NCBI RefSeq assembly: GCF_014132355.1
Contig: NZ_BLZO01000099.1
Location: 1-34,146, forward strand
Reading direction: 5' to 3'
From: Okeania sp. KiyG1
Lineage (GTDB): Bacteria; Cyanobacteriota; Cyanobacteriia; Cyanobacteriales; Microcoleaceae
DNA length: 34,146 bases
The notes under the pieces were generated by a model that saw nothing but the letters and a program-made list of their open reading frames with translations, had not been told where the DNA came from and searched no databases. The position numbers were made by a program, and so were the translations under genes. Of this stretch, positions 1,369 through 26,870 are shown piece by piece (the stretch's first letter is position 1; every line of letters begins with the position of its first letter).

Positions 1369-3744
1369 ATGTCTGACCTAGAATCAAATTTATCTGCTCT
1401 AGTTGCTAAGGTTTCACAATTGGAAAAACAACAAGTTAGTCTCAAAAGATATGTTGTTAAATTGAAACATACTTTAGATGAGCAGATAGAAAATTTTAAT
1501 CATCGACCGGAAATACAAGATATCGAAAATTTACAGAAAAATTTTGTTGCTTTAACTCTACGTTTAGATGAATTATTAGCTTTAAATAATCCCATAAAAT
1601 CAACTACAGAAACTCAAGATAAATCTCCGGATAATTGGCAAAAAACTGAAGAATATCAAAATCAATTAGTATTTAACCGTACTGATAGTCGTGATGTATT
1701 AATCGAAGCATTAGAAACAGCTCAAGCACGATTAATTATTGTTTGCCCTTGGTTAAACTTTAATAGTATTGATGAACATTTACTGAAGAAATTAAAGAAT
1801 TGTTTAAACCGCAATTGTCAGATAGATATTGGTTGGGGATATTTAGGCGATCGCTTGAATATTGGCAAAGGTTGGAAATATAATGCTTTGCGAGATTTAC
1901 AAGATTTGGAAGAAAGTTATCCTGGTCTATTTCGGCTGAAGTTGTTAGGAACTCACGAAAATTTCTTGGTGTGTGATGAGAGGTTTGCTTTTGTGGGGAG
2001 TCATAATTTTTTAGCTTCTGGCAATCAAAGTTTGGAAAGAGAAGTGGGAGTTTTGACGAGTGATTCAGAAATTATTCAAGGATTAATTAACCGTTTTGAT
2101 GATGGTGAAGGTTTGGATGAGGTGGAAATTAATCGTAGATTTGCAGCAAGTGTGAAAAGTTTGGATGAGGTGGAATATTTGCCTGGAGTTATTGATGAAA
2201 GTGAAATGGAGTTTAGGGATTTTTCGATGGTGGTAGGTGAAGATGAGGAGGAGGAAGAAGAAGTGGAATATTTGCCTGGAGTTGTTGATGAGAATGAAAT
2301 GGAATTTCAGGATATTTCGATGATGGTAGATGAAGATGAGCAGGAGGAAGAAGAGGAAGAAGAAAGTCAAGAACCTGTGGTTAGTGCTGAGGAATTTTTG
2401 CGTAGATATAGTGAAGGAGAGCGAGATTTTACTGGGATTAATTTGTCTGGTGTTGATTTGAGTGGAAAGTCTTTTAGTGATTCAAAATTAAATTTGAGTA
2501 ATGCTAATTTTAATGGTGCAAATTTGAGTGGTGCAGATTTAAGAGACTTGAACTTGACAGGAGCAAAATTTCAAAGTGCTAACCTCTCTGAAATTAAGTT
2601 GTATTCAGCAAATTTAAGTCAAACTAAGTTTATTAATAGTAACTTGAACAAAGCAAACCTTTATAACACTAAACTAGAAAAGGCAAAGTTCAGAAATGTG
2701 AATCTCAGTGAAGCTAATTTAGAGTCTGCAAATTTTACTGAAGCTAACTTAAGTGGAGTTAACTTTAGTAATTCTCAACTATCAAATGATGCAAATTTCA
2801 GTAGTGCAAATCTCAAAAAAGCAAATTTGAGTAGATTAAATTTGAGGAATGCAAATTTTACTAACGCAGACTTGAGTCAAGCTGATTTGAGTAAAGTAAA
2901 TTTATTAAACGCAAAATTTGAAGGAGCAAAGCTGCAAATGGTAACAATGAATCAAGCTCTTTGTAGCGAAACAACTGTTTTTCCAAAAGGTTTTAATTTT
3001 ACTAAATTAGGTGTTTATTTTATTGCTCCTGCTGCTTCATTATCAGAAGTAAATCTAGCTGGTCGTGACTTGAGTCATGTACACTTAAGAGAAGCAAACT
3101 TACAAGGAGCAAACCTAAATTAAACTAATCTTAATAACTCCGATTTAAGTGATGCAAATTTAAGCAATGCTCAGTTAAAGAAAGCAAATTTAGTTAATAC
3201 AAAATTTGTTGAGGCAAATCTTAAGAAAGCTAATTTGAGTAAAGCATCTATAAAAGGTGCAGAACTAAAATTAGCAGACCTGAATCAAACAAATTTTGTC
3301 TTTGCTAAATTACATGGTGTTAATCTAACAGCAGCAAATCTTAGTCAAACAAATTTTGCTCATGCCAATTTATATGATGTTAATTTAACAGCAGCCAACC
3401 TTAGTCAAACTGACCTAAAAAATGTACAAAATTTTAATCAAGTTAACCTTTGTGCTGCCAACCTAACTGGTGCCAATTTAGTCAGCTTATCTTTGTCTAA
3501 TAATCAGACACTTACTGGTGTTAATTTAAGTGAAGCAAACCTTTGTGGTACAAACTTGAGTCACACTAATTTAAGTAATGCTAACCTAACTTTAGCAGAC
3601 TTGCGTGGGGCAATTTTGATGAATTCCAATTTAGAAAAAGCAAACTTAAAAGAAGCAAATATAACTGGTACAAACTTTGGTGAAGGAAATACTAAAGCTA
3701 ACTTGAAAGGCGCAACAATGCCAGACGGTTCAACCCACGAATAA
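1369..3744 (+). pseudogene. PLD-like / pentapeptide-repeat fusion with an in-frame stop
   Basis: One frame of 791 codon positions is interrupted by a TAA at 3121-3123; the pentapeptide pattern continues unchanged on both sides, so this is one gene. Residues 1-70 look like a coiled coil. Residues 100-240 resemble one phospholipase D-like half: HENFLVCD (196-203) stands where HxKxxxxD is expected, with Asn for Lys, followed by GSHNFLASG (210-218). A duplicated acidic linker follows (EYLPGVIDESEMEF at about 269, EYLPGVVDENEMEF at about 300, each with a run of Glu). From about residue 350 to the end there are dozens of A(D/N)LxX pentapeptides, which in known structures form a right-handed beta helix. 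Known PLD proteins cleave or transfer phosphodiesters, but the Lys-to-Asn change and the single motif suggest a binding rather than a catalytic role. The stop could be a real nonsense mutation or a sequencing error; the product to 3120 would keep all domains with fewer repeats. Confidence 0.8.
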
Positions 3745-10539: not shown

Positions 10540-11667
10540 CTAACTAGCAGCAGCGTCAGCTTCTCGAAGAGCTTTGAGAATTTCAGGACGTTTCATACGC
10601 GCATAGCCACGAAGTTTCCGCTCTTGGGCAATTTTCTTCAGTTGCCTGAGTGACTTGGTATCATAATCATCCATGGGAACTTCCGGCTCTACAGGAGCTG
10701 CTTGAGCTTTAGTCTTTCTAGCAGTAGTTTTTGTTGTACTCGCCTTAGACCTCGACGATCCTGTAGAACTTGATTTACTCTTGGTTGTTGTCTTACGTGG
10801 TGTCTCAGTTTTAGCTGCGACTTCTTCAGTAGAATCAACATCTGGTATTGTCTGTAATTGACGCCGAACCGCAGATACTTGAGTTTTTAAGTCATCTTCA
10901 ATATCTTGAACTGACTGGGAGAACTGATTAATTGTTTTGACAATCCCTTCGAGTTTTTTCTCTATTTGTTTATCGAGATCGTCAAGTTGTTTTGATAATA
11001 AGTCCACATTCACTCCTGATAAAGAATTAGAAGTTGTTTTTTTTGTTGTTGAACTTGTGATTTTTCTTGCCAATTTTTCTACCTTATCGTTAACTGAATT
11101 TTCTAGATTTGTAATCAAATTTTTGAGCTGTTCAATTTGAACAACATCCGTCCCTCGATCCTGCAAAGATTTTACTTGTTTTTTGAGTACCTCCTCATTT
11201 TTCTTGATAGATTGATCGATTTTTTTCGTGAGAGAATCTACTTTTTTATCGAATGATACCTCAAGTTGCTTCATTAGATGCTCAAAGTTTGGTGTTTCTA
11301 TAACAGGTGGTTTAGTTAACTGCTCTATTTCTGCCACAGCTATCTTTGCTTGTTCATCTGTCATTTCATAAATCCAGGCCCATAGTTCCTTGATTTCAGC
11401 TTCTTTTGCAACTTGATACCAATCAGCACCACGAACGATTTCGTACTGCTGCTCGGAATCGTCATTCTCTGTTAATCTGACAATTAATGGGATTAAGTTA
11501 CTGCCTTGTTCAGAAAGACTCTTAACTAAGGCTTCATATCTTTCTGTAGGAATATCTCTCACCTGAGAGTCTGGTACAGTAATTTTGGATATGGGAGTTA
11601 ACTCCAAACTTACTGGTTGTACTGGTAAATCTTCTTGTCGATTTTTTCGCTTCGTTGATGAAACCAT
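10540..11667 (-). CDS. ParB-like N-terminal domain, coiled coil and SAP/Rho-N-like C-terminus
   Basis: 375 aa. Residues about 25-115 look like a ParB/sulfiredoxin-fold domain: an ISKITVPDSQVRDIPTERYE lead, LIPLIVRLTEN, then YEIVRGADWYQVAKEAEI at the place of the ParB nucleotide-binding GExRxxA region. Residues about 125-275 are predicted coiled coil (repeated KKID and LKNLITNLENSV patterns). A low-complexity Ser/Thr/Lys stretch follows. The last 45 residues (SLRQLKKIAQERKLRGY, then MKRPEILKALREA) resemble a SAP or Rho N-terminal nucleic-acid-binding helix pair. There is no helix-turn-helix of the classical ParB kind and no adjacent parA. The same architecture recurs in the gene at 18274-19197, next to a ParA fusion, so this may be a second partner. 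It is transcribed away from the winged-helix gene at 12422, with 754 bp between them. Confidence 0.75.
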   Translation of the reverse strand: MVSSTKRKNRQEDLPVQPVSLELTPISKITVPDSQVRDIPTERYEALVKSLSEQGSNLIPLIVRLTENDDSEQQYEIVRGADWYQVAKEAEIKELWAWIYEMTDEQAKIAVAEIEQLTKPPVIETPNFEHLMKQLEVSFDKKVDSLTKKIDQSIKKNEEVLKKQVKSLQDRGTDVVQIEQLKNLITNLENSVNDKVEKLARKITSSTTKKTTSNSLSGVNVDLLSKQLDDLDKQIEKKLEGIVKTINQFSQSVQDIEDDLKTQVSAVRRQLQTIPDVDSTEEVAAKTETPRKTTTKSKSSSTGSSRSKASTTKTTARKTKAQAAPVEPEVPMDDYDTKSLRQLKKIAQERKLRGYARMKRPEILKALREADAAAS

Positions 11668-12421: not shown

Positions 12422-13243
12422 ATGGATGTTAAAGATTTAAAATTTCTGTTAAAATTACTGAGTTATCCAAATTATCAAGTATCTATTACTAAAATTAACT
12501 TAGAGTCTGACATGAAGGTCTCTGAGAAAAATCAAATTTGCTCCAGACTTGGCGATCTAGGGTTGGTAAAATTTACTCGAGAAGTTACAAAAATTAATAT
12601 AAAACCCAAAGGAAAATCACTCCTAAATAATAAAAAAGCTGTTAATTCACTCACCACAGAAGAATTGAAAGTGTTGAAAGCTACTGCTAAAGGTGCTATT
12701 TCTCCAGCGGAGACTGGTCTTGATAGTAGCTATAGGAAAGCTGTTATCACAGACTTACTAGAGCAAGGTTTGATTAAAGTTATCGATCAAAAAATCAAAG
12801 ATGTCTGGTTAACAGAAAAAGGAAAGCAATTTTTGTGCCAAGAATATTCTTCTGGCAGTACTGCAAAAGAGATATCTTTAAAAATGTTAAGCGACTATCT
12901 TGATTTAATGCGTAGCAACTGTTGGCTTTACCTCCCTCAACAAGAAAAACAACCGTTCTCCCAAATGCCTAACAAACCTAAGGACTCTGAGATTTTAGCT
13001 GTGATTCGAGACTTAGACCAAAATCTAGGCACAAATAACTATCTACCTATTTTTCATCTGCGACACAAATTACAACCTCCTTTATCTAGAGAAGAACTAG
13101 ACCTAGCACTTTACCGTCTAGAAAAAAGTGACCAAATAGAATTAAGCTCCTTACAAGAGGTAAGTTCCTACACTCCAGAACAATTTGAAGCAGGTATCCC
13201 TCAAGATATTGGCGGAAGTTTATTTTTTATCATTCCCTACTAA
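12422..13243 (+). CDS. Multi-winged-helix protein
   Basis: 273 aa. Three winged-helix-like units can be read: residues about 5-68 (ISRLGDLGLVKFTREV-type recognition region ending KPKGKSLL), about 78-140 (LTTEELKVLKATAKG, then VITDLLEQGLIKVID and VWLTEKGKQFL), and about 185-273 (LPIFHLRHKLQPPLSREE, LDLALYRLEKSDQIEL). The last unit ends SLFFIIPY, which resembles the end of the ATPase at 14927-16922 (LVCFIPSY), where a winged-helix-like segment also closes the protein. The two may therefore belong to one system. Known winged helices bind DNA or proteins; whether this one is a regulator or a structural subunit is not visible. The intervening 1.7 kb is full of repeats and mobile-element remnants, so an original operon may have been split. 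Confidence 0.75.
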   Translation: MDVKDLKFLLKLLSYPNYQVSITKINLESDMKVSEKNQICSRLGDLGLVKFTREVTKINIKPKGKSLLNNKKAVNSLTTEELKVLKATAKGAISPAETGLDSSYRKAVITDLLEQGLIKVIDQKIKDVWLTEKGKQFLCQEYSSGSTAKEISLKMLSDYLDLMRSNCWLYLPQQEKQPFSQMPNKPKDSEILAVIRDLDQNLGTNNYLPIFHLRHKLQPPLSREELDLALYRLEKSDQIELSSLQEVSSYTPEQFEAGIPQDIGGSLFFIIPY

Positions 13244-14840: not shown

Positions 14841-14921
14841 AAACTGGTATAAATTTTCCTATATCTGCTCCTATATCTGCTATCGTAATTCTCTAACCAG
14901 TCCAAAAAATATTACCAGTTT
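14841..14921 (+). promoter_or_regulatory. Inverted and direct repeats upstream of the ATPase gene
   Basis: AAACTGGT (14841-14848) and ACCAGTTT (14914-14921) form an inverted pair that ends five bases before the ATG. CCTATATCTGCT is directly repeated between them. They could be an operator, or a stem that affects translation; neither is shown. Confidence 0.3.
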
Positions 14922-14926
14922 ATACT

Positions 14927-16922
14927 ATGGCATCTATAGATCGGATTATTCAAAGAGAAGTTAATCCTTTTGACCCAGTCAGTCTATATACTATTAATTT
15001 TTGGCAGGAGCAACAAAATCCTACCCTAAATGTTGATTCTATCCATCAAAATATTATCTGTGATATAGAAATAGTGCTAGAGCAGGTTGCCCAGGAACAT
15101 CGTCCCCGAACATTGATACTGACTGGTGACTCTGGTTCTGGTAAAAGTTATCTTTTAGGGAGAATCAAAAAATTATTCAATACAAAAGCCTTTTTTGTGT
15201 ATATCGATCCCTGGCCTGATAGTGATTACATCTGGCGTCATATTTTGCGTCAAACAGTAGATTCTCTGATGAAAACTCCGGAGGGTCAAATAGATTCTCA
15301 GTTGTTACTATGGTTAAAAGGTCTATTGGCTTTCCACAATAGTAGTTTACTGAAAAAATTATTGGTGAAAGAAGAGTATTTATTAGAAATCTCAAAGGTA
15401 TTTATGCTTCTGGCATTTATAATCCTAATGATTTTTTTAGTGCCCTTTATTATCTGTTAAATCCAGATTACATATCGATTGCCTGTGAGTGGTTACGGGG
15501 GGATGATTTGGACGAAGATGATTTAAAATCTTTGGGGATTAAAAGTAGTATAGATTCTGAAGATTCTGCTCAGAAAATTATGACTAATTTGGGTATTATT
15601 TCTGCTGCATCTCAACCTATTGTTTTATGTTTTGATAATCTTGATAATATTCCTCGGTTATTAAATGGTTCTTTGGACTTGCAAGCTTTATTTAATGTTA
15701 ATTCTAATATTCATACTCATTGTCCACAAAATTTTCTAATAATTATTAGTATTATTACGAGTACCTGGAAACAAAATTTTGAATTGATTCAACCTGCAGA
15801 TAAAACTAGAATAAATGCTGGATATTTTCATTTAAAGCCGATTACTTTAGCACAGGGAGAATGTTTATTAGCGGCTCGTTTGAGTCCTTTGCATTCTCTG
15901 GCTACACCCCAGCCTAAATCACTTATATTTCCTTTGTCAACAGAAATATTAGAAGAAAAGTTTCCTCGGGGTAAAACTCTACCTCGCAATATCTTAGAAT
16001 TGGGACGTAAGGAATACGATCGATATAAAAATAAATTATTAGATGAGCCAGAAAATTCTCAACAGTTAACACCTGAAACACAATTAGCGACTTTTAAGTT
16101 GATTTGGCAAGATAAATATAGAAAGACTCAGAAAAAATTAATAAAATTACTGATTTAGCAGCACCAGAATTGATTAGAATGCTACAAGAAGTATTAAATG
16201 CTGTGAAATTTCAGCAGGTAAAAACTAAATTATTAAGTGGGAAGTATGCTAGTCATTCTTTGAGTTATAAACAACAAAATAATGAGGAAATAATTGGTGT
16301 AATATGGACGGAAGATCCAAATATGAATAGTTTTTATAATACAATGAATGGTTGCCAGAAAGTGGTGGATCAAAAGTTATGTCAAAGTTTATATTTAGTG
16401 AGAGCTGCTGAGGTGGGAAATGCTAAAAATATGAGCAATAAAATATATAGAAAAATTTTTAAAGGTAGATTGAAAAATTGTCATATTCAGCCAAACCTGG
16501 AATCTGTATATTTTTTGGCTACATACCATAGTTTGGTGAATGCTGCTCTCGCTAATGAATTAACGATTGAAGGTAAGATTATTAGTCTCAAAGAGTTAGA
16601 AGAAATAATTTGTGAATCACAAATTTTAAACAATTGTAGCTTATTACAAGATTTATCTGTAGTCGCTCCAGTAAATAGTCAAGAACAGCAAAGTGATTTA
16701 GATTTGAATGAGGTGAAGGATTTTGTGGTAAATTTAATTGAAACACAATGTTTTATGGAGCGCAAAAACATAATTGAGAATATACTAAATAAATTTGTCA
16801 ATATAGAGCAGTCAAAAATTGATTCAATTATTGAAGAGCTTGAAGGAGAACAGAAAATAAAAAATATTACTCCTACATCAAAATTAGATCGACAATTAGT
16901 TTGTTTTATTCCTAGTTACTAA
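14927..16922 (+). pseudogene. Large AAA-type ATPase with C-terminal winged helix, two frameshifts
   Basis: Three frames join into one protein of about 665 aa. Frame 1 (14927 to about 15375) has the Walker A LTGDSGSGKSYLLG at about residues 65-78. Frame 2 (about 15377-16140) continues RVFIRNLKGIYASGIYNPND and contains a probable Walker B, IVLCFDNLDNIP. Frame 3 (to 16922) continues NKITDLAAPELIRMLQEV and ends in a winged-helix-like segment (NIIENILNKFVN, IIEELEGEQKIK, LVCFIPSY). Each shift equals loss of one A: GAAAGA read as GAAGA near 15374, and seven A read as six at 16132-16137. The fold resembles ORC/Cdc6- or BrxC-like P-loop proteins in general plan, but I cannot name the family. The nuclease-like gene at 17051 follows on the same strand after 128 bp. 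Confidence 0.75.
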
Positions 16923-17050
16923 TGAACATATAATGAAAATTAGGAACGATAAACAAAAATCAATATTTATGTAGATAAAACTAATAATTTTTGAACAATT
17001 TTTAGCGTTCTTAACTGCTTAAAAACCTGGAAAATCAGGATAGTTTGTCA

Positions 17051-17971
17051 ATGCCAATAATTAATAAACCTCAACTACAGTCTCCCCCATTCAGTGTTAC
17101 CAATGTTAAAGTTGCTTTTGAGTGCCCACGTTTATTTTATCTGAAACAACGTTTTGGGGGCGAGCATCTATTTTTGTCAAAAGATTATATCCAGGAAATT
17201 GATAGTGCTTTTCTCGGTTTAGCTAATCAGTTGATGAATATGATTAGGCAGGAATCTAAGATTCAAGCTTTGTTTGAGGGACAGTTTGAGGAATTGATGG
17301 TAGAGGCGATCGCTCATCAAATACAACAATTATTTTATGAGTCGATTTTCTTTCCTTATTTAGACACAATAATTACAAAGGATTCTAGTCTAGCAACAGC
17401 ATTCTATCAAATTTGGCAGCTATTAACTAAACTAATTTTAAATATATCTAAAATTATTGTTAAAAATCGACGTTATTGTCATGAAAATGTTGTAGTTCGT
17501 CGCACATTAATTACAAGGGAAATACTACTAGATTATACTTTTAAAATAGCAGATGGTAAGACTCAAAAGTTGACGGGGAAAGTTAATAATTTAATTTTTG
17601 ATTTTGAATCTCGTCGTTTATGTGTGGTTAATTATCAGACTTATGAAACTGTGGAAGTATCGTCTCAGTTAATGGCGGTTGCTTTGTATAGTTTTCTACT
17701 GAAGCAAAAGAAAAAAGTGCCTGTTGATGCGGTTGTTTATTGGGTTTTACCTGAGTTGGGAGAGTATTATTATTTGTGGGAAAAGTTAGAGAATGTGGTG
17801 GAGAGTTTAGTTCCTGCTAAGTTACAGGAGATGCGAGAGTGGTTAAGGTGGGAGGAGTCTCAACCTGACCCACCTCCACGGACGGAGCATGAGTATTTGT
17901 GTGATATTTGTCCTCAGAGGGAAAGGTGTCAGAGTTTTTTTGATGGGGGTGATTCAACAATTAATAATTAA
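17051..17971 (+). CDS. Cas4/RecB-like PD-(D/E)XK family protein with Fe-S cysteines and altered catalytic positions
   Basis: 306 aa from ATG 17051 (AGGA at 17037-17040); an in-frame TTG at 17045 is an alternative. VKVAFECPRLFYLKQ near the N-terminus and YLCDICPQRERCQSFF at the C-terminus give the one-plus-three cysteine pattern that holds a 4Fe-4S cluster in Cas4 and AddB-like nucleases. The middle region has the layout of the family, TGKVNNLIFDFESRRLC then VVNYQT and SSQLMAVALYSFLL. The usual G-x-x-D and D-Y-K-T are here G-K-V-N and N-Y-Q-T. Both metal-binding Asp positions read Asn and the catalytic Lys reads Gln, so nuclease activity is doubtful, although the Q-x6-Y motif is kept. It probably forms one module with the ATPase upstream and perhaps the winged-helix gene at 12422. 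Confidence 0.78.
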   Translation: MPIINKPQLQSPPFSVTNVKVAFECPRLFYLKQRFGGEHLFLSKDYIQEIDSAFLGLANQLMNMIRQESKIQALFEGQFEELMVEAIAHQIQQLFYESIFFPYLDTIITKDSSLATAFYQIWQLLTKLILNISKIIVKNRRYCHENVVVRRTLITREILLDYTFKIADGKTQKLTGKVNNLIFDFESRRLCVVNYQTYETVEVSSQLMAVALYSFLLKQKKKVPVDAVVYWVLPELGEYYYLWEKLENVVESLVPAKLQEMREWLRWEESQPDPPPRTEHEYLCDICPQRERCQSFFDGGDSTINN

Positions 17972-17992
17972 TAATTAATAATTAATAATGAA
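17960..17992. repeat. Heptamer tandem array (AATTAAT)n
   Basis: About four copies covering the stop codon of the nuclease-like gene. A weak, degraded hairpin-repeat relative may follow (18000-18075, with CCTTAAAAGGCGGGG and TTTTAGACTCAATTATT). Confidence 0.75.
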
Positions 17993-18082
17993 ATTGTTTT
18001 TATAATGGGGATGCGTGAGCAATCCTCCAAAAACATTTCACCTTAAAAGGCGGGGTTTTAGACTCAATTATTTTGAGAGATA

Positions 18083-18230
18083 GTAGGTTGGGTAGAACTA
18101 AGTGTTAGCGGAGCTTATTCGTTGGGATAAACATAACTTGTAGGTAGGATTGATTCAACATATCATCTTGGTACGAGTTGGGTTTATCCTACGGATAAGC
18201 TGGCGCTAACGTTACCTCAACCCAACCTAC
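18083..18230. mobile_element. Palindromic MITE-like element (GTAGGTTGGGT ends)
   Basis: About 148 bp with ends GTAGGTTGGGT and ACCCAACCTAC. A second inner inverted repeat pairs GTTAGCGGAGCTTATTCG with TCCGTAGGATAAAC-type sequence on the opposite arm, so almost the whole element folds on itself. No ORF and no clear target duplication. A short relative lies at 3753-3782. Confidence 0.7.
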
Positions 18231-18273
18231 AGATATTTGGTATTTTTGGGGGTGGGAATGCGACCGCTACTTT

Positions 18274-19197
18274 CTATTCTGGTATATATGCTATTTTTCT
18301 GAGTTTTTCGTAGGTTGTTTTCCCGAAACCAATTCCCTTTTTAGTTTGTTTTTTAAGATTTTCCCAAGTTAAGTTTTCTCCAGACTGTTTCCAGTGTTTA
18401 ATTGCTTCCCATGTAGCATTTATCATTGTAGTTGTACCTTTAACTCTTGCAAAAGCTTGCTGAATATCTTCTTTTGTTTCTACTGTTAATAAATTAACTT
18501 TTTGTAGCTGATTAGATTCATTTTTTATAGCTTCAAGTTGTCTATTTAGAGCTATTTGAGTTTTTGTCAACAAAGATAAAGCTTCTTGCTTGGAAAGATT
18601 ACTGATTTTTTGACGTATAACTTCTAGTTGGTTGTTCAGAATTTCCTCAATTTCTCCGCTCTTTGTTTTGGGGACTAACTGGTCAATTTTACTTTCGATA
18701 TTCTCCAGTTTTTCCTCTATGTTCTTATTTTCTATAGGCTGAGAATGAGTAGGAGATTCTATAGTTTTTTGACCTAATTTTGTTATTATTGGTTGCAATT
18801 TTTTGTCTAGTAACTTATCTAACTCACTTAAATTTATTGTACCTTCTTGTATAACTGTAGATTCTTCAGATACAGGAGAAATACTACTTTTTTTCCTGAA
18901 AATTTCCACCTGTTCTTCTAACGCCTCTGCCTTATCACCTTCAATGATAAATGCTCCTATTCTTTCCCCATCACGAGGATTTATTTCTTTTGCTCTAACT
19001 GCTGCATAATACTCGAAATGTCCGTCAACTACTTCGTAAGATTCCCAACCAATAGTACGCACAACTAAAGGTTTAATTGTACCTTCAGCTTTTAAAATTA
19101 ACTGAGCAGCTTGTTCTAAATCTGATTCTGAAAATTCGGAACGAGGCACATTAGAAGTAATTTCTTTTACAAGTACAAATTCTGGAGATAATAACAT
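18274..19197 (-). CDS. ParB-like coiled-coil protein, partner of the nuclease-ParA fusion
   Basis: 307 aa. Residues about 10-95 form a ParB/Srx-like domain (GTIKPLVVRTIGWESYEVVD, then GHFEYYAAVRAKEI in place of the GExRxxA loop that binds CTP in ParB). Residues about 145-245 are coiled coil. The C-terminal 55 residues (MINATWEAIKHWKQSG, then KKGIGFGKTTYEKLRKIAYIP) are short, basic and possibly DNA-binding. Its ATG (19197-19195) shares one base with the TAA of the upstream gene in TAATG, so translation is probably coupled. The plan is close to that of the protein at 10540-11667. Known ParB proteins load on centromere sites and stimulate ParA; here that partnership is inferred from gene order and domains. 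Confidence 0.8.
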   Translation of the reverse strand: MLLSPEFVLVKEITSNVPRSEFSESDLEQAAQLILKAEGTIKPLVVRTIGWESYEVVDGHFEYYAAVRAKEINPRDGERIGAFIIEGDKAEALEEQVEIFRKKSSISPVSEESTVIQEGTINLSELDKLLDKKLQPIITKLGQKTIESPTHSQPIENKNIEEKLENIESKIDQLVPKTKSGEIEEILNNQLEVIRQKISNLSKQEALSLLTKTQIALNRQLEAIKNESNQLQKVNLLTVETKEDIQQAFARVKGTTTMINATWEAIKHWKQSGENLTWENLKKQTKKGIGFGKTTYEKLRKIAYIPE

Positions 19198-20714
19198 TAT
19201 TTTAGTCCGATTTTATTTAATACTTCGTTTGCTAATGACTCAAATTCTTGGCAAGAGGAGGAATCTGGTGCATAGTCAAATATAGAGCTAGGTTCAGGTA
19301 TTAGCAACTCTCCAACTTGGCGAGTTTTATCAATACACCTTGCAAGTTCTTCTCTTTGAAATATAACTGTTTCCATAACATTAAGCTCGTAACGTTGGGA
19401 AACTGCTTGGATTTGTTTTGGTAATGTATATTGTACAAATCTAGGATTAGGATTGATTTTACAAGGCAGTACACCTAATATTTCTATGTCTGGTTTACTC
19501 ATCATTTGCTTAAAACTATTAATCTCTTCGTGAAGATAATTTTTAACATTTGATAAACCTTGATTGGCAAATGGTTTTAAGTCTGAAGGAATAATTAAAT
19601 AATTAGCACTAACTAGAGGAATAAACGCATACAAATTAAAAGAGGGTGGTGTATCGAGAAGAACAACATCATATTTTCCTTCTACTGGTTTCAGTTTCTT
19701 TATTAGTGAAGTTAAACTACTTCTAAGGTTATTAAATTCAGTTTCTGCTCGCATTAAACTTATGTGAGAAGGAATCACATCAATTTCAGGATTGTTAAAC
19801 CTAGAAACTCTAGCTACTTCTGGAATACTAGAAGATTCATCATATCTCAAAACATGATAAATATTTGAATCTTTTATATCATCAAATTGCTCATCATTAA
19901 ATTTAATTAAACCTGTAGCAAATGTTGTATTTGCTTGACTATCTAAGTCGATCACCAAAACTCGATAACCTTTTTTACTCAAAGCAGCAGCTAAATTAAC
20001 TACTGTTGTCGTTTTTCCAACTCCGCCTTTATTGTGATACACAGCAATTACTTTCATGGAATTTATCCTACTTTGATTAATTGGATTATAATCTGTTTCA
20101 ATGTTTACTAAATTTGCCCTACTTTCCGGCATATTGCTAACAATTTTATTTATCTCATATTGAGGAGCGATCGCCTGATATTCATTTTTTTCGTTTCCAG
20201 ACTTTTGTGTCTCATCAGTTAATTTAACAGTATTTTCATTAACTTGTTCGTTAGTAATTTCTGTTGTCTGAGGATTAGGATTTTTCCCTAAATAATTTCG
20301 ACCTATTAATACTTTAATGTCTTCTATTTTGTCATCAATATCAATTCCCAAACAACTAAAAACTAACTCAATATCATTTCCTACTCTTTGATAAATTCTA
20401 ATTTCTTTAGCATTAGTTAATAAGCCATATTTAACATTCATACTTGTTAAATAACGCCTGAGTTTTCTTAGATGGCGGTCTAAATTTTCTCTCGGATGTT
20501 TTGCCTCCATAACTAAACTCAATGGAGAATCTCCATCTAAACGAAAAGGTAACTTCTGGGCAGCAAATGATAAAAAGTCTAAACGGATACTACCCAACGT
20601 TACTTCTTGATGCCAATTTTCAATACCGTATCCTAATTTTGGCAGTAGATAACTAACAATTAGTTTACTTTCTACTTCGCTTTCATTGCGACATAAGTCT
20701 GGATTAAAACTCAA
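19197..20714 (-). CDS. PD-(D/E)XK nuclease (HsdR-N-like) fused to a ParA ATPase
   Basis: 505 aa. Residues 1-140 match the type I restriction HsdR N-terminal nuclease plan: acidic helix ESEVESKLIV (11-20), RLDFLSF with Asp46, and LVMEAKHP with Glu70 and Lys72, so the D...ExK core is intact. Residues 140-218 are a polar linker. Residues 220-505 are a complete ParA/MinD ATPase: deviant Walker A HNKGGVGKTT (227-236), DLDSQANT (256-263), and Walker B VLLDTPPSFN (351-360). The start is a TTG at 20714-20712 with AAGGAA eight bases upstream; no ATG gives the nuclease domain. The ParB-like gene follows with a one-base overlap. ParA proteins move DNA or complexes by ATP-driven cycling on DNA. Joining one to a nuclease suggests DNA recognition plus cleavage, as in defence or plasmid competition, which is inference. 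Confidence 0.88.
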   Translation of the reverse strand: MSFNPDLCRNESEVESKLIVSYLLPKLGYGIENWHQEVTLGSIRLDFLSFAAQKLPFRLDGDSPLSLVMEAKHPRENLDRHLRKLRRYLTSMNVKYGLLTNAKEIRIYQRVGNDIELVFSCLGIDIDDKIEDIKVLIGRNYLGKNPNPQTTEITNEQVNENTVKLTDETQKSGNEKNEYQAIAPQYEINKIVSNMPESRANLVNIETDYNPINQSRINSMKVIAVYHNKGGVGKTTTVVNLAAALSKKGYRVLVIDLDSQANTTFATGLIKFNDEQFDDIKDSNIYHVLRYDESSSIPEVARVSRFNNPEIDVIPSHISLMRAETEFNNLRSSLTSLIKKLKPVEGKYDVVLLDTPPSFNLYAFIPLVSANYLIIPSDLKPFANQGLSNVKNYLHEEINSFKQMMSKPDIEILGVLPCKINPNPRFVQYTLPKQIQAVSQRYELNVMETVIFQREELARCIDKTRQVGELLIPEPSSIFDYAPDSSSCQEFESLANEVLNKIGLK

Positions 20715-20921
20715 GGTGATTATTCCTTAATTTTGAATTTTTCCTTGATTAATTTATCCGATCATATCCAACGGATTAATTGATGTCAATCTTGACAATT
20801 TGATTCAGTTGTATTACTTTTTTCAGTATTTTTACAGTTTTATACCAATTTATAAAAGTGGTATTATCAATTAATTTTATTCTGCTTGGGGTTATTTTCC
20901 TAATCCCTTTGAGTATCAAGA

Positions 20922-21026
20922 TATAGCAGAAGAAAGAAGGAAGAAGAAAGAAGGAAGAAGGAAAAACCTTGCTTTGTCTGAGTTTTAAGCTTTTGATCTG
21001 TCCTAACCTTTGCTTCGACTGCTATA
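20922..21026. repeat. TATAGCAG-ended element, copy 3
   Basis: 105 bp bounded by TATAGCAG and CTGCTATA, with GAAGGAAGAAG-type purine repeats on the left and GATCTGTCCTAACCTTTG on the right. The right part is the inverse of the left end of the element at 10115-10340. Confidence 0.65.
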
Positions 21027-21028
21027 CC

Positions 21029-21060
21029 CTATAAAAAAAATCCGGTCAAAATGCCGGATT
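21029..21060 (-). terminator. Rho-independent terminator of desA
   Basis: On the minus strand AATCCGG, an 8-base loop, CCGGATT and then a T run (eight T in all) form a standard terminator about 120 bases past the desA stop. Confidence 0.8.
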
Positions 21061-21181
21061 ATATAAAAATTGATAAATGAAAAATTCGTTGTATGTGTTA
21101 ATGGGGTTTAAATCCCTATTAAAAACCTTGAAAAGCTGATAGCTAATCGCTGATAGCTGACTGCTTTCCTAACTAAAATTA

Positions 21182-22233
21182 CTAGGAAACTTTTTGAGCA
21201 TCATACTCTTTAAAAGTTAGATAAAACTTAGTCTTATCATACAAATGACACTTCTCTGTTATCTCTTTCATTAAAGACCAAGAAAACTTAGTTTCATAAA
21301 GCTTATCTCCCCATTGATCCTTCAAAAATTGATGTGCTTTCCTCAGATTATATGAAGGAATTCCTGTAGAGACATGATGGGGAATATGCACATTAATATC
21401 ATGGCAAAGAAACTCGACCCACCAGGGATAATCACAATGCACTGTACCAAATAATTGAGCCTCTGCCTCATTCCACTCTTCTACAGGAGTAAAAGGAATT
21501 TCTGGTACTGTATGGTGAACAATAGTAAACGTACTCATCCAGAAGTGGTAAACTAACCAGGGCACGAACCAAAACTTGACCAAACCCCACAGACCTACTG
21601 TAGCGATAAGCACAGGAAAAGCGATCGCGCTAAACCCAAAAATTACCAATGCAGAAAATTTAACGTCTTCCCTATCCTTACCTTCAAATTTTCTCCAATC
21701 AAAATGCACAACTGCCCAGTGAGCAATAGAAGCTAACCACCAAAGTTTCCCACGCATAAACCGATACACTGACTGCATCAAGCTACCTGCATTCTCATAA
21801 TCTTCTGGATACCAAGGTTGCCAGGCATTATCCTCACCCATCTTATTCGTATGTTTGTGGTGATAATTATGGCCTATTCGCCAGCCATGAAAGGGATAAA
21901 TTAAAGGCAAAAACGCTAAGTGACCAACTAGGTCATTGACCCACCGACGGTTAGCAAAAGAACGATGACCGCAGTCATGGCCAATAACAAAAAACCCAGT
22001 CAATGCTGTGCCAGTGAAAACCCAGAGTAGGGGCAATAAAAACCAAGGTGTAATTGTTAGTCCCCAGTAACCTAATACGACCATAAAAATATTGACCGCT
22101 ACCATTGTCCATGTTTTCCATTTATCTTTGAGAAAAACTTCACGAGGTAGGGTTTTACAATATCTTTTAGTTTTAGTTGTTCGTTTCTAATCTCAGAATT
22201 TTCATTAGTAGATTCTGCAATTGATATTGTCAT
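21182..22233 (-). pseudogene. desA: Acyl-lipid omega-6 (delta-12) desaturase DesA, one frameshift
   Basis: DesA adds the delta-12 double bond to membrane-lipid oleate, using ferredoxin and oxygen, in the thylakoid and plasma membranes. The three histidine boxes are present: HDCGH, HNYHH and HIPHH, with the DesA-typical [15 protein letters not shown] and [12 protein letters not shown] between membrane segments. The usual length is about 350 aa. From ATG 22233 the frame reads [20 protein letters not shown] to DIVK. The conserved [15 protein letters not shown] then appears in the next frame, which matches the loss of one A in GTAAAACCC (about 22152-22155). The longest open part, 22105-21182, starts inside the first membrane region. 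Total length is 1052 bases, one short of 351 codons. As the gene is normally needed for membrane fluidity, a base-calling indel is a strong alternative to real loss. Confidence 0.88.
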
Positions 22234-25786: not shown

Positions 25787-26870
25787 ATCAATTATCCATT
25801 ATCAATTATCAATTAATGAACTACACCGACGCATCTGCTTTCTGTGTAGGCATAGAAATGCCTTTTCAAGACTGTCAGAACTTCCTGAGAAACAGAAGTG
25901 GTTTTAGATTTAGCAATAACCACTTTGTTTTGACGGCGGTTTATAGTCACCGAACAAGTCCAGCTCGACTCGTTTCAAATTGATGGCAGCATTTATATCT
26001 CTGTCAATTTTAAACTGTAATTCCTCATCAAAATATTCTCTGATACTGCAATCTGTAAACACTATTTCATCTCTATAACAAAGCAATTGAGATGTATAAT
26101 TTGGTTTAACTTCAACAACACTGGCGTTTGCTTTTGTGGCTACCTGACCCAGCACTTCAAAGAATTGACTAAATGCAGCATCAAGCCAAGATTTATTTAA
26201 CCCCGACTTAGTAGATTGACTATTAGGCAAATACTTTCCATTTTCATCTTTTTTGGTTTGATTTCTGCGAGTTAATCCTGCTAAATTTAACTTTTCATGG
26301 AAAAATACTTTTTTACCTGTTTGAATCAATTTATAAGCTGTTTTGTACTGGAAATCTTTACGAATTCTGGCTATTTTTTGATAGATTTTACTTTCGCGTT
26401 TTGCTAGTTTTCGTCTTGATTTACTACCATGTTTACGTTTGTTCTTGCGTTGGGATACTTTAGCTAGTTTTTCTTGATTTGTTCTTAAAGGTTTCACAGA
26501 AGGTAATTTGTTTCCTTCTGATGTGGCTAGATAAATATCTTTATCTAGGACGGCATCTAAACCTATTGAGTTTTCCCATGTAGGTTGAATATTGTAAGTT
26601 TTCAACTCAGGGATTGACTTATCTTCTAAACTTAAATTTATCCACCAACCATCAGTTTTTTTTTTGTTAATGAAATTTATTTGATTTTGGCTAGCTCTGG
26701 TATTGGTCTATGGGTTCTGAATTTTATTAAACCTGTTTTAGGAATTGATATATATAACCATTTACTATTAATTGATGAAAATTTTAACCAAGAATCATCA
26801 GCACTCTTGAAAGTTCAATGAACGATATCTAGATTTGCTTTTAAATATCGGTTGGCCACTACGATTACCT

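Follow-up and report, generated by a model that had tools for sequence, protein, structure and literature searches.

A nuclease-ParA fusion and a ParB-like protein form a conserved chromosomal gene pair of cyanobacteria, probably a defence system built from partition parts

The gene pair and its two proteins

In this work, we describe a pair of genes carried by a contig of the cyanobacterium Okeania sp. KiyG1 (NZ_BLZO01000099.1, assembly GCF_014132355.1), the whole analysed stretch of which, 34,146 nucleotides long, is referred to as the window. The first gene, on the minus strand at 19197-20714, starts with TTG and encodes a protein of 505 amino acids, in which an HsdR_N nuclease domain of the PD-(D/E)XK type (20385-20666, minus strand, residues 17-110, with D46, E70 and K72) is joined to a ParA ATPase domain (19326-20057, minus strand, residues 220-463, with AAA_31 and CbiA matches). 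The second, on the same strand at 18274-19197, encodes a ParB-like protein of 307 amino acids, composed of a ParB_N domain (18991-19152, minus strand, residues 16-69), a coiled coil and a conserved C-terminal module of the LTWxNL type (18277-18540, minus strand). The stop codon of the former and the start codon of the latter overlap in a TAATG (19195-19199, minus strand; the plus strand bases read catta). The fusion is present in single copy in the source genome, the remaining matches found there being ParA segments only. An initial annotation of the window had described this fusion, with coordinates, strands and lengths that all proved correct, and had read the overlap as a sign that the two proteins are made together, which is borne out.

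Comparison with other genomes was based on 63 loci, picked from fusion and ParB-like matches: a few of them (e.g. L128) entered via the ParB-like gene itself, and genomes G097, G235, G237 and G357 lie outside the set (loci and genomes are cited by our own L and G numbers). The ParB-like gene, whose adjacency the initial annotation had suggested checking, is next to the fusion in 59 of the 63, and its nearest ATG lies between -8 and +20 nucleotides from the fusion stop in 54 of the 57 loci measured. The fusion and the ParB-like protein are encoded together, as a conserved chromosomal pair of cyanobacteria.

Both halves of the fusion are well preserved. The Pfam scan recognizes AAA_31 at residues 220-400 (E 7.5e-52), the best match of the family profile in PDB is Soj (6iub, E 2.1e-39), and the deviant Walker A motif KGGVGKTT is kept in all of the 62 aligned ParA domains. 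The nuclease part, residues 17-110, matches HSDR_N_2 in the window protein with E 6.4e-4 and 20.2 bits, short of the Pfam cut-off of 25, which is passed by two distant relatives, L131 (33.0 bits) and L181 (25.5 bits). D46, E70 and K72 are invariant in the 54 nuclease-bearing sequences of the alignment, as are P74 and T100; the complete ParA ATPase and the intact PD-(D/E)XK core (Asp46, Glu70, Lys72) of the initial annotation are thus confirmed. Median identity to the window protein, over 51 rows, is higher for the N-terminal domain than for the ParA domain (66% vs 56%), so that the nuclease is not a decaying appendage. The superfamily 2 (SF2) motor is missing, and ParA stands in its place. The fusion resembles type I HsdR in its HsdR_N core with D, E and K, bearing in mind the sub-threshold Pfam match in the window, and differs from it in lacking the SF2 helicase; HsdM and HsdS were not seen among the 17 window proteins scanned, out of 29 open reading frames of at least 80 amino acids.

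In the tree of the fusion ParA domains, from which 7 fragmentary rows were left out, at least 4 gains or losses of the nuclease are demanded. In one case (L102:10276-13503, minus strand) the nuclease is replaced by a superfamily 1 (SF1) helicase joined to ParA, in two open frames with one in-frame stop between them; the helicase weakly matches the MTES_1575 family of restriction endonucleases. A fragmentary pair of the distant type adjoins this helicase-ParA gene. The PADLOC candidate PDC-M28B was considered as an identity for the fusion and rejected: its matches cluster around the P-loop, extending in L085 into the nuclease part as well, and a paper describing PDC-M28B was not found in our literature search.

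In the window partner, ParB_N is matched above the cut-off of 26.3 (30.4 bits, E 4e-7), and the fold is matched in 51 of 55 ParB-like members. Canonical ParB proteins carry a GERR-type phosphate motif. In the alignment of the 55 ParB-like proteins the glycine, G59, is always present, and the arginines of the motif were not found: position 61 is an arginine in 2 sequences and position 62 in none, with a gap there in 8. No helix-turn-helix match was obtained for the window protein, nor for the L096, L085, L123, L105 and L131 members, scanned singly; the remaining members were judged from the best 25 of 134 families.

The tails of these proteins are swappable modules of helix-hairpin-helix (HhH), SAP/Rho_N or LTWxNL type. 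At E <= 0.1, HHH_6 is matched in 18 and HHH_3 in 6 of the 55 tails, Rho_N in 5, SAP in 4 and HeH in 3, all of them weak, mutually overlapping matches; the L085 tail matches the ComEA profile, below cut-off (E 5.3e-4). The LTWxNL module, about 85 residues long, has its signature in 12 of the 55 proteins, the window one included. It produced no significant match in Pfam or PDB, and aligns collinearly with the HhH-type tails at an hhalign probability of 67%, suggesting only that it might be a diverged helix-hairpin-helix pair akin to them. The ParB-like domain, the coiled coil and the missing helix-turn-helix noted in the initial annotation all stand; what it took for a short basic tail is part of this conserved module. 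Because the GERR arginines and the helix-turn-helix were not found, and the tails are exchangeable, the partner looks like a ParB-fold protein holding DNA without sequence specificity.

Another protein with ParB_N, a coiled coil and Rho_N, of 375 amino acids and with no ParA adjoining, is encoded in the window at 10540-11667 (minus strand). Proteins clustering with it lie just past the pair in L075-L078, and past the FtsK-type operon described below in L213.

Distribution, location and turnover

Nuclease-bearing ParA loci were found in 56 of the 386 cyanobacterial genomes sampled; the figure was typed by hand, and counts broken or cut copies (G013, G060, G080, G286 and G300) as well as the distant type. 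The initial census at E<=1e-15 yielded 94 genomes, but as plain ParA genes are among its matches, it does not serve to count fusions. The ParB-like protein is likewise found in 56 of the 386 genomes, at E <= 1e-5. The architecture HsdR_N-ParA plus ParB-like recurs across many cyanobacterial families, so that the fusion is far beyond chance.

Of 23 loci in assemblies of at most 10 contigs, nuclease-free and helicase variants counted, 22 have the pair on a contig 2.6-7.1 Mb long; the exception is L131, on a 334-kb contig. Within the chromosome, no link to the origin is apparent: none of 20 loci falls within 5% of genome length from dnaA (median distance 22%; Kolmogorov-Smirnov p 0.25), and only 3 of 20 do so from dnaN (p 0.88, n=20), which rules out an origin-linked chromosomal parABS. 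A search for parS-like repeats near the pair (window 17972-21181; distant sites are possible) revealed two-copy repeats only. The picture that the initial annotation had set against its own reading, namely an origin location with parS sites and a decayed nuclease, is therefore not the one observed, the nuclease core being invariant. Nor is the pair a substitute for canonical ParB, since 28 of the 56 fusion genomes also have the latter (odds ratio 6.5). Canonical ParB itself (TIGR00180, E<=1e-10) was detected in 72 of the 386 genomes, many of the listed copies being on small, plasmid-like contigs.

For the main type, an origin from plasmids or phages was considered and rejected. Tblastn with the nuclease domain gave no match in 50,697 phage records, and only 7 partial ones in 72,556 plasmid records, none of which covers 80% of the query or is annotated as ParA. 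A sister type, in which the fusion is accompanied by a ParB/Rho_N partner, was found on L142, a contig of a viral collection, and, only by way of it, on two Nostoc sp. UHCC 0870 plasmids of 55 and 36 kb. ParM is encoded on each of the two, and unnamed4 has two ParAB pairs in addition. Finally, the ParA of the Leptolyngbya boryana plasmid pLBA has a weak HSDR_N match (E 0.0033).

The locus is stable and its content is not. In the congeners L081 and L126, the flanking genes are 66-95% identical and the fusions 28%; similarly, the fusion of L125 is only 27-30% identical to those of eight relatives. In both cases the allele has been replaced in place between conserved flanks. Families are intermixed in the tree of fusion ParA domains, and broken pairs occur in L011, L118 and L119. 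In L011, from Okeania hirsuta, the fusion is distributed over three frames, and the ParB-like gene is mostly missing. At the type I hsd locus of enterobacteria, too, the position is constant while the alleles diverge strongly and are exchanged. The pattern seen here resembles hsd in this respect, and is unlike a core partition gene.

As for the other neighbours in the window, a fatty acid desaturase (c7; 21182-22105, minus strand) represents a conserved flank upstream of the pair, outside the system. Farther away lie a 584-amino-acid protein (1369-3123, plus strand), which in PADLOC matches MkoB (E 1.9e-25) and, less strongly, DrmC (E 3.8e-5), and a short OrfB_IS605/TnpB-like frame of 231 amino acids (25910-26605, minus strand).

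An FtsK-type operon at the same place

Where relatives lack the pair, its position is occupied by three genes in the order c11-c10-c9. The full c9 protein, mostly 840-940 amino acids long, consists of a 3'-5' exonuclease, PDDEXK_1, FtsK-alpha and FtsK (FtsK_SpoIIIE, E 4.2e-41; FtsK_alpha, E 7.4e-8); its best PADLOC matches are SspH (E 1.3e-69) and mad8, and FtsK and RNase D profiles match too. The c10 protein is an AAA/KAP ATPase, matching SspF in Okeania (E 4e-5) and, weakly, Orc/CDC6 (TIGR02928, E 0.0013). This operon (L185-L192, L194, L196, L197, L200, L213), a chromosomal system of cyanobacteria, has itself been little described.

The pair and this operon behave as alternatives. Among the listed matches, 42 genomes belong to f6, by inference Nostocaceae: 20 have the fusion, 21 the FtsK-type c9, one has both and two have neither (Fisher one-sided p 8.6e-9 for exclusion, relatedness ignored). 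The genome with both is G300, where the fusion is split in two frames and c9 is open; with broken copies removed, 19 fusion and 18 c9 genomes remain, with no overlap (p 9.5e-8). In four mixed genera (g10, g13, g19 and g41) 12 genomes with the fusion and 10 with c9 were counted, and none, among those listed, with both or neither. Traces of the exchange can be seen at some loci: in L099 and L109 the C-terminal end of c9 persists between the fusion and a core ParA gene (see below), and in L085 and L091 its N-terminal end persists on the far side of the ParB-like gene. In the family of the window, G129 holds an intact operon where its relatives hold the pair, and G262 has neither. Two c9 genomes, G121 (with a partial c9) and G360, carry a helicase-type or nuclease-free ParA. 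The pair thus occupies the place of, and almost never coexists with, the exonuclease/PD-(D/E)XK/FtsK protein.

The core ParA gene is a highly conserved stand-alone gene, found in 97 of the 386 genomes (e.g. L085:7438-8322, minus strand), with no match at E<=1e-40 among 12 listed genomes of the window's family. Of 16 stretches centred on it in f6, 12 hold c9, c10 and c11; L193 and L195 hold decayed or partial copies of the operon, and L198 and L199 none, their pair being elsewhere.

In some genomes the pair keeps the AAA-ATPase partner of the FtsK-type protein. Nine loci (L009, L010, L011, L229, L091, L094, L108, L113 and L118) have a c10 open in one frame close to the pair; in L229 it is about 10 kb away, in L011 the pair is broken, and in L118 c9 is also present. 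The c10 proteins of G072, G231 and G306 cluster together with 100/100 support, whereas four congeners of G072 have an FtsK-type c10 that falls outside this clade, and over the c10 tree the partner labels require 4 changes, against a mean of 7.5 in shuffled labels (as low in 0 of 200 shuffles). G199, instead, has a c10 that clusters with the FtsK-type one of its congener.

The window itself retains parts of the operon, all on the plus strand and thus convergent with the pair. A c9 part of 308 amino acids (17045-17971) comprises the PD-(D/E)XK_1 middle only (PDDEXK_1, E 1.4e-5), and is 43% identical to residues 199-500 of c9. It is preceded by c10 (14897-16922), broken into three overlapping pieces in three frames, 90-95% identical to the L010 protein; in the Okeania relatives c10 is a single frame of 669-677 amino acids, so that its state in the window may be due either to decay or to an assembly error. 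The c11 gene (12422-13243) encodes a protein of 273 amino acids with weak winged-helix matches.

Possible functions of the pair

The company kept by the pair recalls the HerA/FtsK capture systems, which Rakesh, Aravind and Krishnan (PMC10853773) have proposed to counter invaders. As outlined there, they combine an Orc/CDC6-like ATPase, a restriction endonuclease and HerA/FtsK, one set including FtsK-alpha, along with winged-helix proteins and sometimes a 3'-5' exonuclease. At the pair's locus we find an AAA ATPase (Orc/CDC6-like by weak matches), a winged-helix protein and a putative restriction endonuclease, and the replaced c9 has the exonuclease, endonuclease, FtsK-alpha and FtsK domains of that system; both share the idea of linking a nuclease to a segregation-type ATPase. 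The difference lies in the motor, which in the pair is ParA with a ParB-like partner, the HerA/FtsK translocase being absent. ParA, as a whole word, does not occur in the main text of PMC10853773, nor in that of a 2026 BREX paper extending the theme. The neighbouring operon is also similar to SspFGH/DndFGH, through the matches of c9 to SspH and of c10 to SspF: the SspFGH module is reported to damage non-modified DNA and to restrict phages, its antiphage action having been shown experimentally (PMC8092258). The pair itself has no SspH-like part.

With ParABS the pair shares a ParA with deviant Walker A and a ParB_N partner in the next gene; it differs in the nuclease carried by ParA, in a window partner devoid of helix-turn-helix, GERR arginines and nearby parS, in not being origin-linked, and in plasmid members coexisting with other partition systems. 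ParA-type domains have also been recruited to conflict in the MinD/ParA-like effectors of multicellular prokaryotes, which are predicted to be inactive (PMC7159879), whereas the Walker A of the ParA described here is intact in all 62 aligned domains. A description of an HsdR_N-ParA fusion was not found in titles or abstract starts among the listed matches in the open-licence PMC literature, and HSDR is absent from the main text of a survey of the ParB fold (PMC12704722).

Because the pair substitutes, at a fixed site of the chromosome, for a nuclease machine of another kind, a role in defence appears probable; and since the c9 operon fits HerA/FtsK capture, and c9 matches SspH, the pair may be read as a ParA/ParB-like version of such systems, probably a novel defence against foreign DNA that has been assembled from partition components. 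In its general form, a restriction-like defence module of the chromosome whose DNA pump has given way to partition machinery, this is the reading we favour, and we put its chances only slightly below even. We are a shade more tentative about the specific mechanism: restriction driven by partition dynamics, where cycling of ParA and the ParB-like protein, rather than a helicase or pump, would locate and collect DNA that is foreign or misplaced and license HsdR_N to cut it, the tail of the ParB-like protein acting as an interchangeable reader of DNA. This would make the pair a ParA counterpart of FtsK capture, swapped with it at a fixed chromosomal immunity locus. In the reading we favour, ParA-ATP dimers would coat DNA whatever its sequence, and the ParB-like protein would hold DNA via its HhH, SAP/Rho_N or LTWxNL module, oligomerise through its coiled coil, stimulate ParA turnover and gather the complexes on DNA lacking some 'self' property, such as small, newly entered, replicating or segregating DNA. 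Gathering would juxtapose the HsdR_N domains, and the DNA would be cut. Self-protection might be provided either by the AAA/winged-helix partners or by spreading over the numerous copies of the chromosome. The initial annotation had proposed a DNA-cutting system using ParA cycling: this fits, because the fusion is real, is made together with its partner and has a strongly conserved nuclease core. The architecture, its conservation, the coupling of the genes, and exclusion and replacement at the locus are seen directly in the data, whereas DNA cutting, target choice and defence by the pair are inferred.

Several observations weigh against a defensive role. Over all 386 genomes, where 56 have the fusion, 37 have c9 (truncated or broken copies in G101, G121, G131, G159, G278 and G305 included) and one has both, exclusion is weak (p 0.018), and all the Fisher tests ignore relatedness. 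A close c10 copy is kept in only 4 of 13 pair genomes checked; this, together with the grouping of the G199 protein, indicates that c10 is not an obligate component. The nuclease is absent in 8 of the 60 ParA rows of the tree set, 6 of which (L092, L093, L103, L115, L120 and L127) still adjoin the ParB-like gene, so that the pair can do without cutting. Its surroundings show no evident defence island, and none of the 17 window proteins scanned is a methylase or other self-marking gene product. The core ParA gene lies within the fetched stretch in 19 of the 63 loci, often as divergent neighbour of the pair, and a housekeeping role would likewise agree with the chromosomal, often syntenic position of the pair.

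These last points lead to a first alternative, that the pair positions or segregates the chromosome, or nucleoid, in polyploid cyanobacteria, with HsdR_N as a DNA-processing or DNA-holding part. The vicinity of the core ParA is the strongest hint for it; location on the main contig, shared by the nuclease-free variants, is in agreement with it, as are the relatedness of the replaced FtsK to segregation pumps and the lack of classical ParABS in cyanobacteria, as stated in a review (PMC7766704). Against it stand the lack of linkage to dnaA or dnaN, the presence near the pair of two-copy repeats only, and the finding that canonical ParB is not replaced, being also present in half of the fusion genomes; moreover, the pair is patchy and at times broken, and replacement by alleles 27-30% identical would be odd for a core function. 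We regard segregation as unlikely, though as a serious candidate.

Two further explanations are, in our view, improbable, and about equally so. The nuclease-ParA system could derive from plasmids and, now often chromosomal, attack or exclude plasmids with foreign partition complexes. Sister pairs of the same architecture on the two Nostoc plasmids, where ParM and, on unnamed4, two ParAB pairs are also found, and on L142, would suit such competition between replicons, which the initial annotation had also raised, as would the ParA of pLBA; yet plasmid cases are few in so large a collection of records, the members found are mostly chromosomal (the census having sampled genomes), and the link with the FtsK-type operon points to a broader target. 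Alternatively, the pair and the exonuclease/FtsK protein could be interchangeable chromosomal engines of resection or recombination, serving DNA end-processing and repair. HhH, SAP, 3'-5' exonucleases, Cas4/RecB-like nucleases and FtsK motors are all common in repair, and one or the other of the two machines is present in 40 of the 42 listed f6 genomes. However, no recombinase was noticed beside the pair, although a systematic search for recombinases was not made, alleles turn over and decay, and the best PADLOC matches of the FtsK-type protein are SspH and mad8, even if FtsK and RNase D profiles match as well.

ParA-type ATPases position chromosomes, plasmids and organelles. If the defence reading is true, spatial pattern-forming ATPases can also serve as the sensing or gathering part of a system that destroys DNA. 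The pair is, in addition, a chromosomal ParA/ParB-like pair in cyanobacteria, from which classical ParABS is said to be missing (PMC7766704). Both the job of ParA in polyploid cyanobacteria and the question whether partition parts were captured for defence would thereby become testable in culturable filamentous strains.

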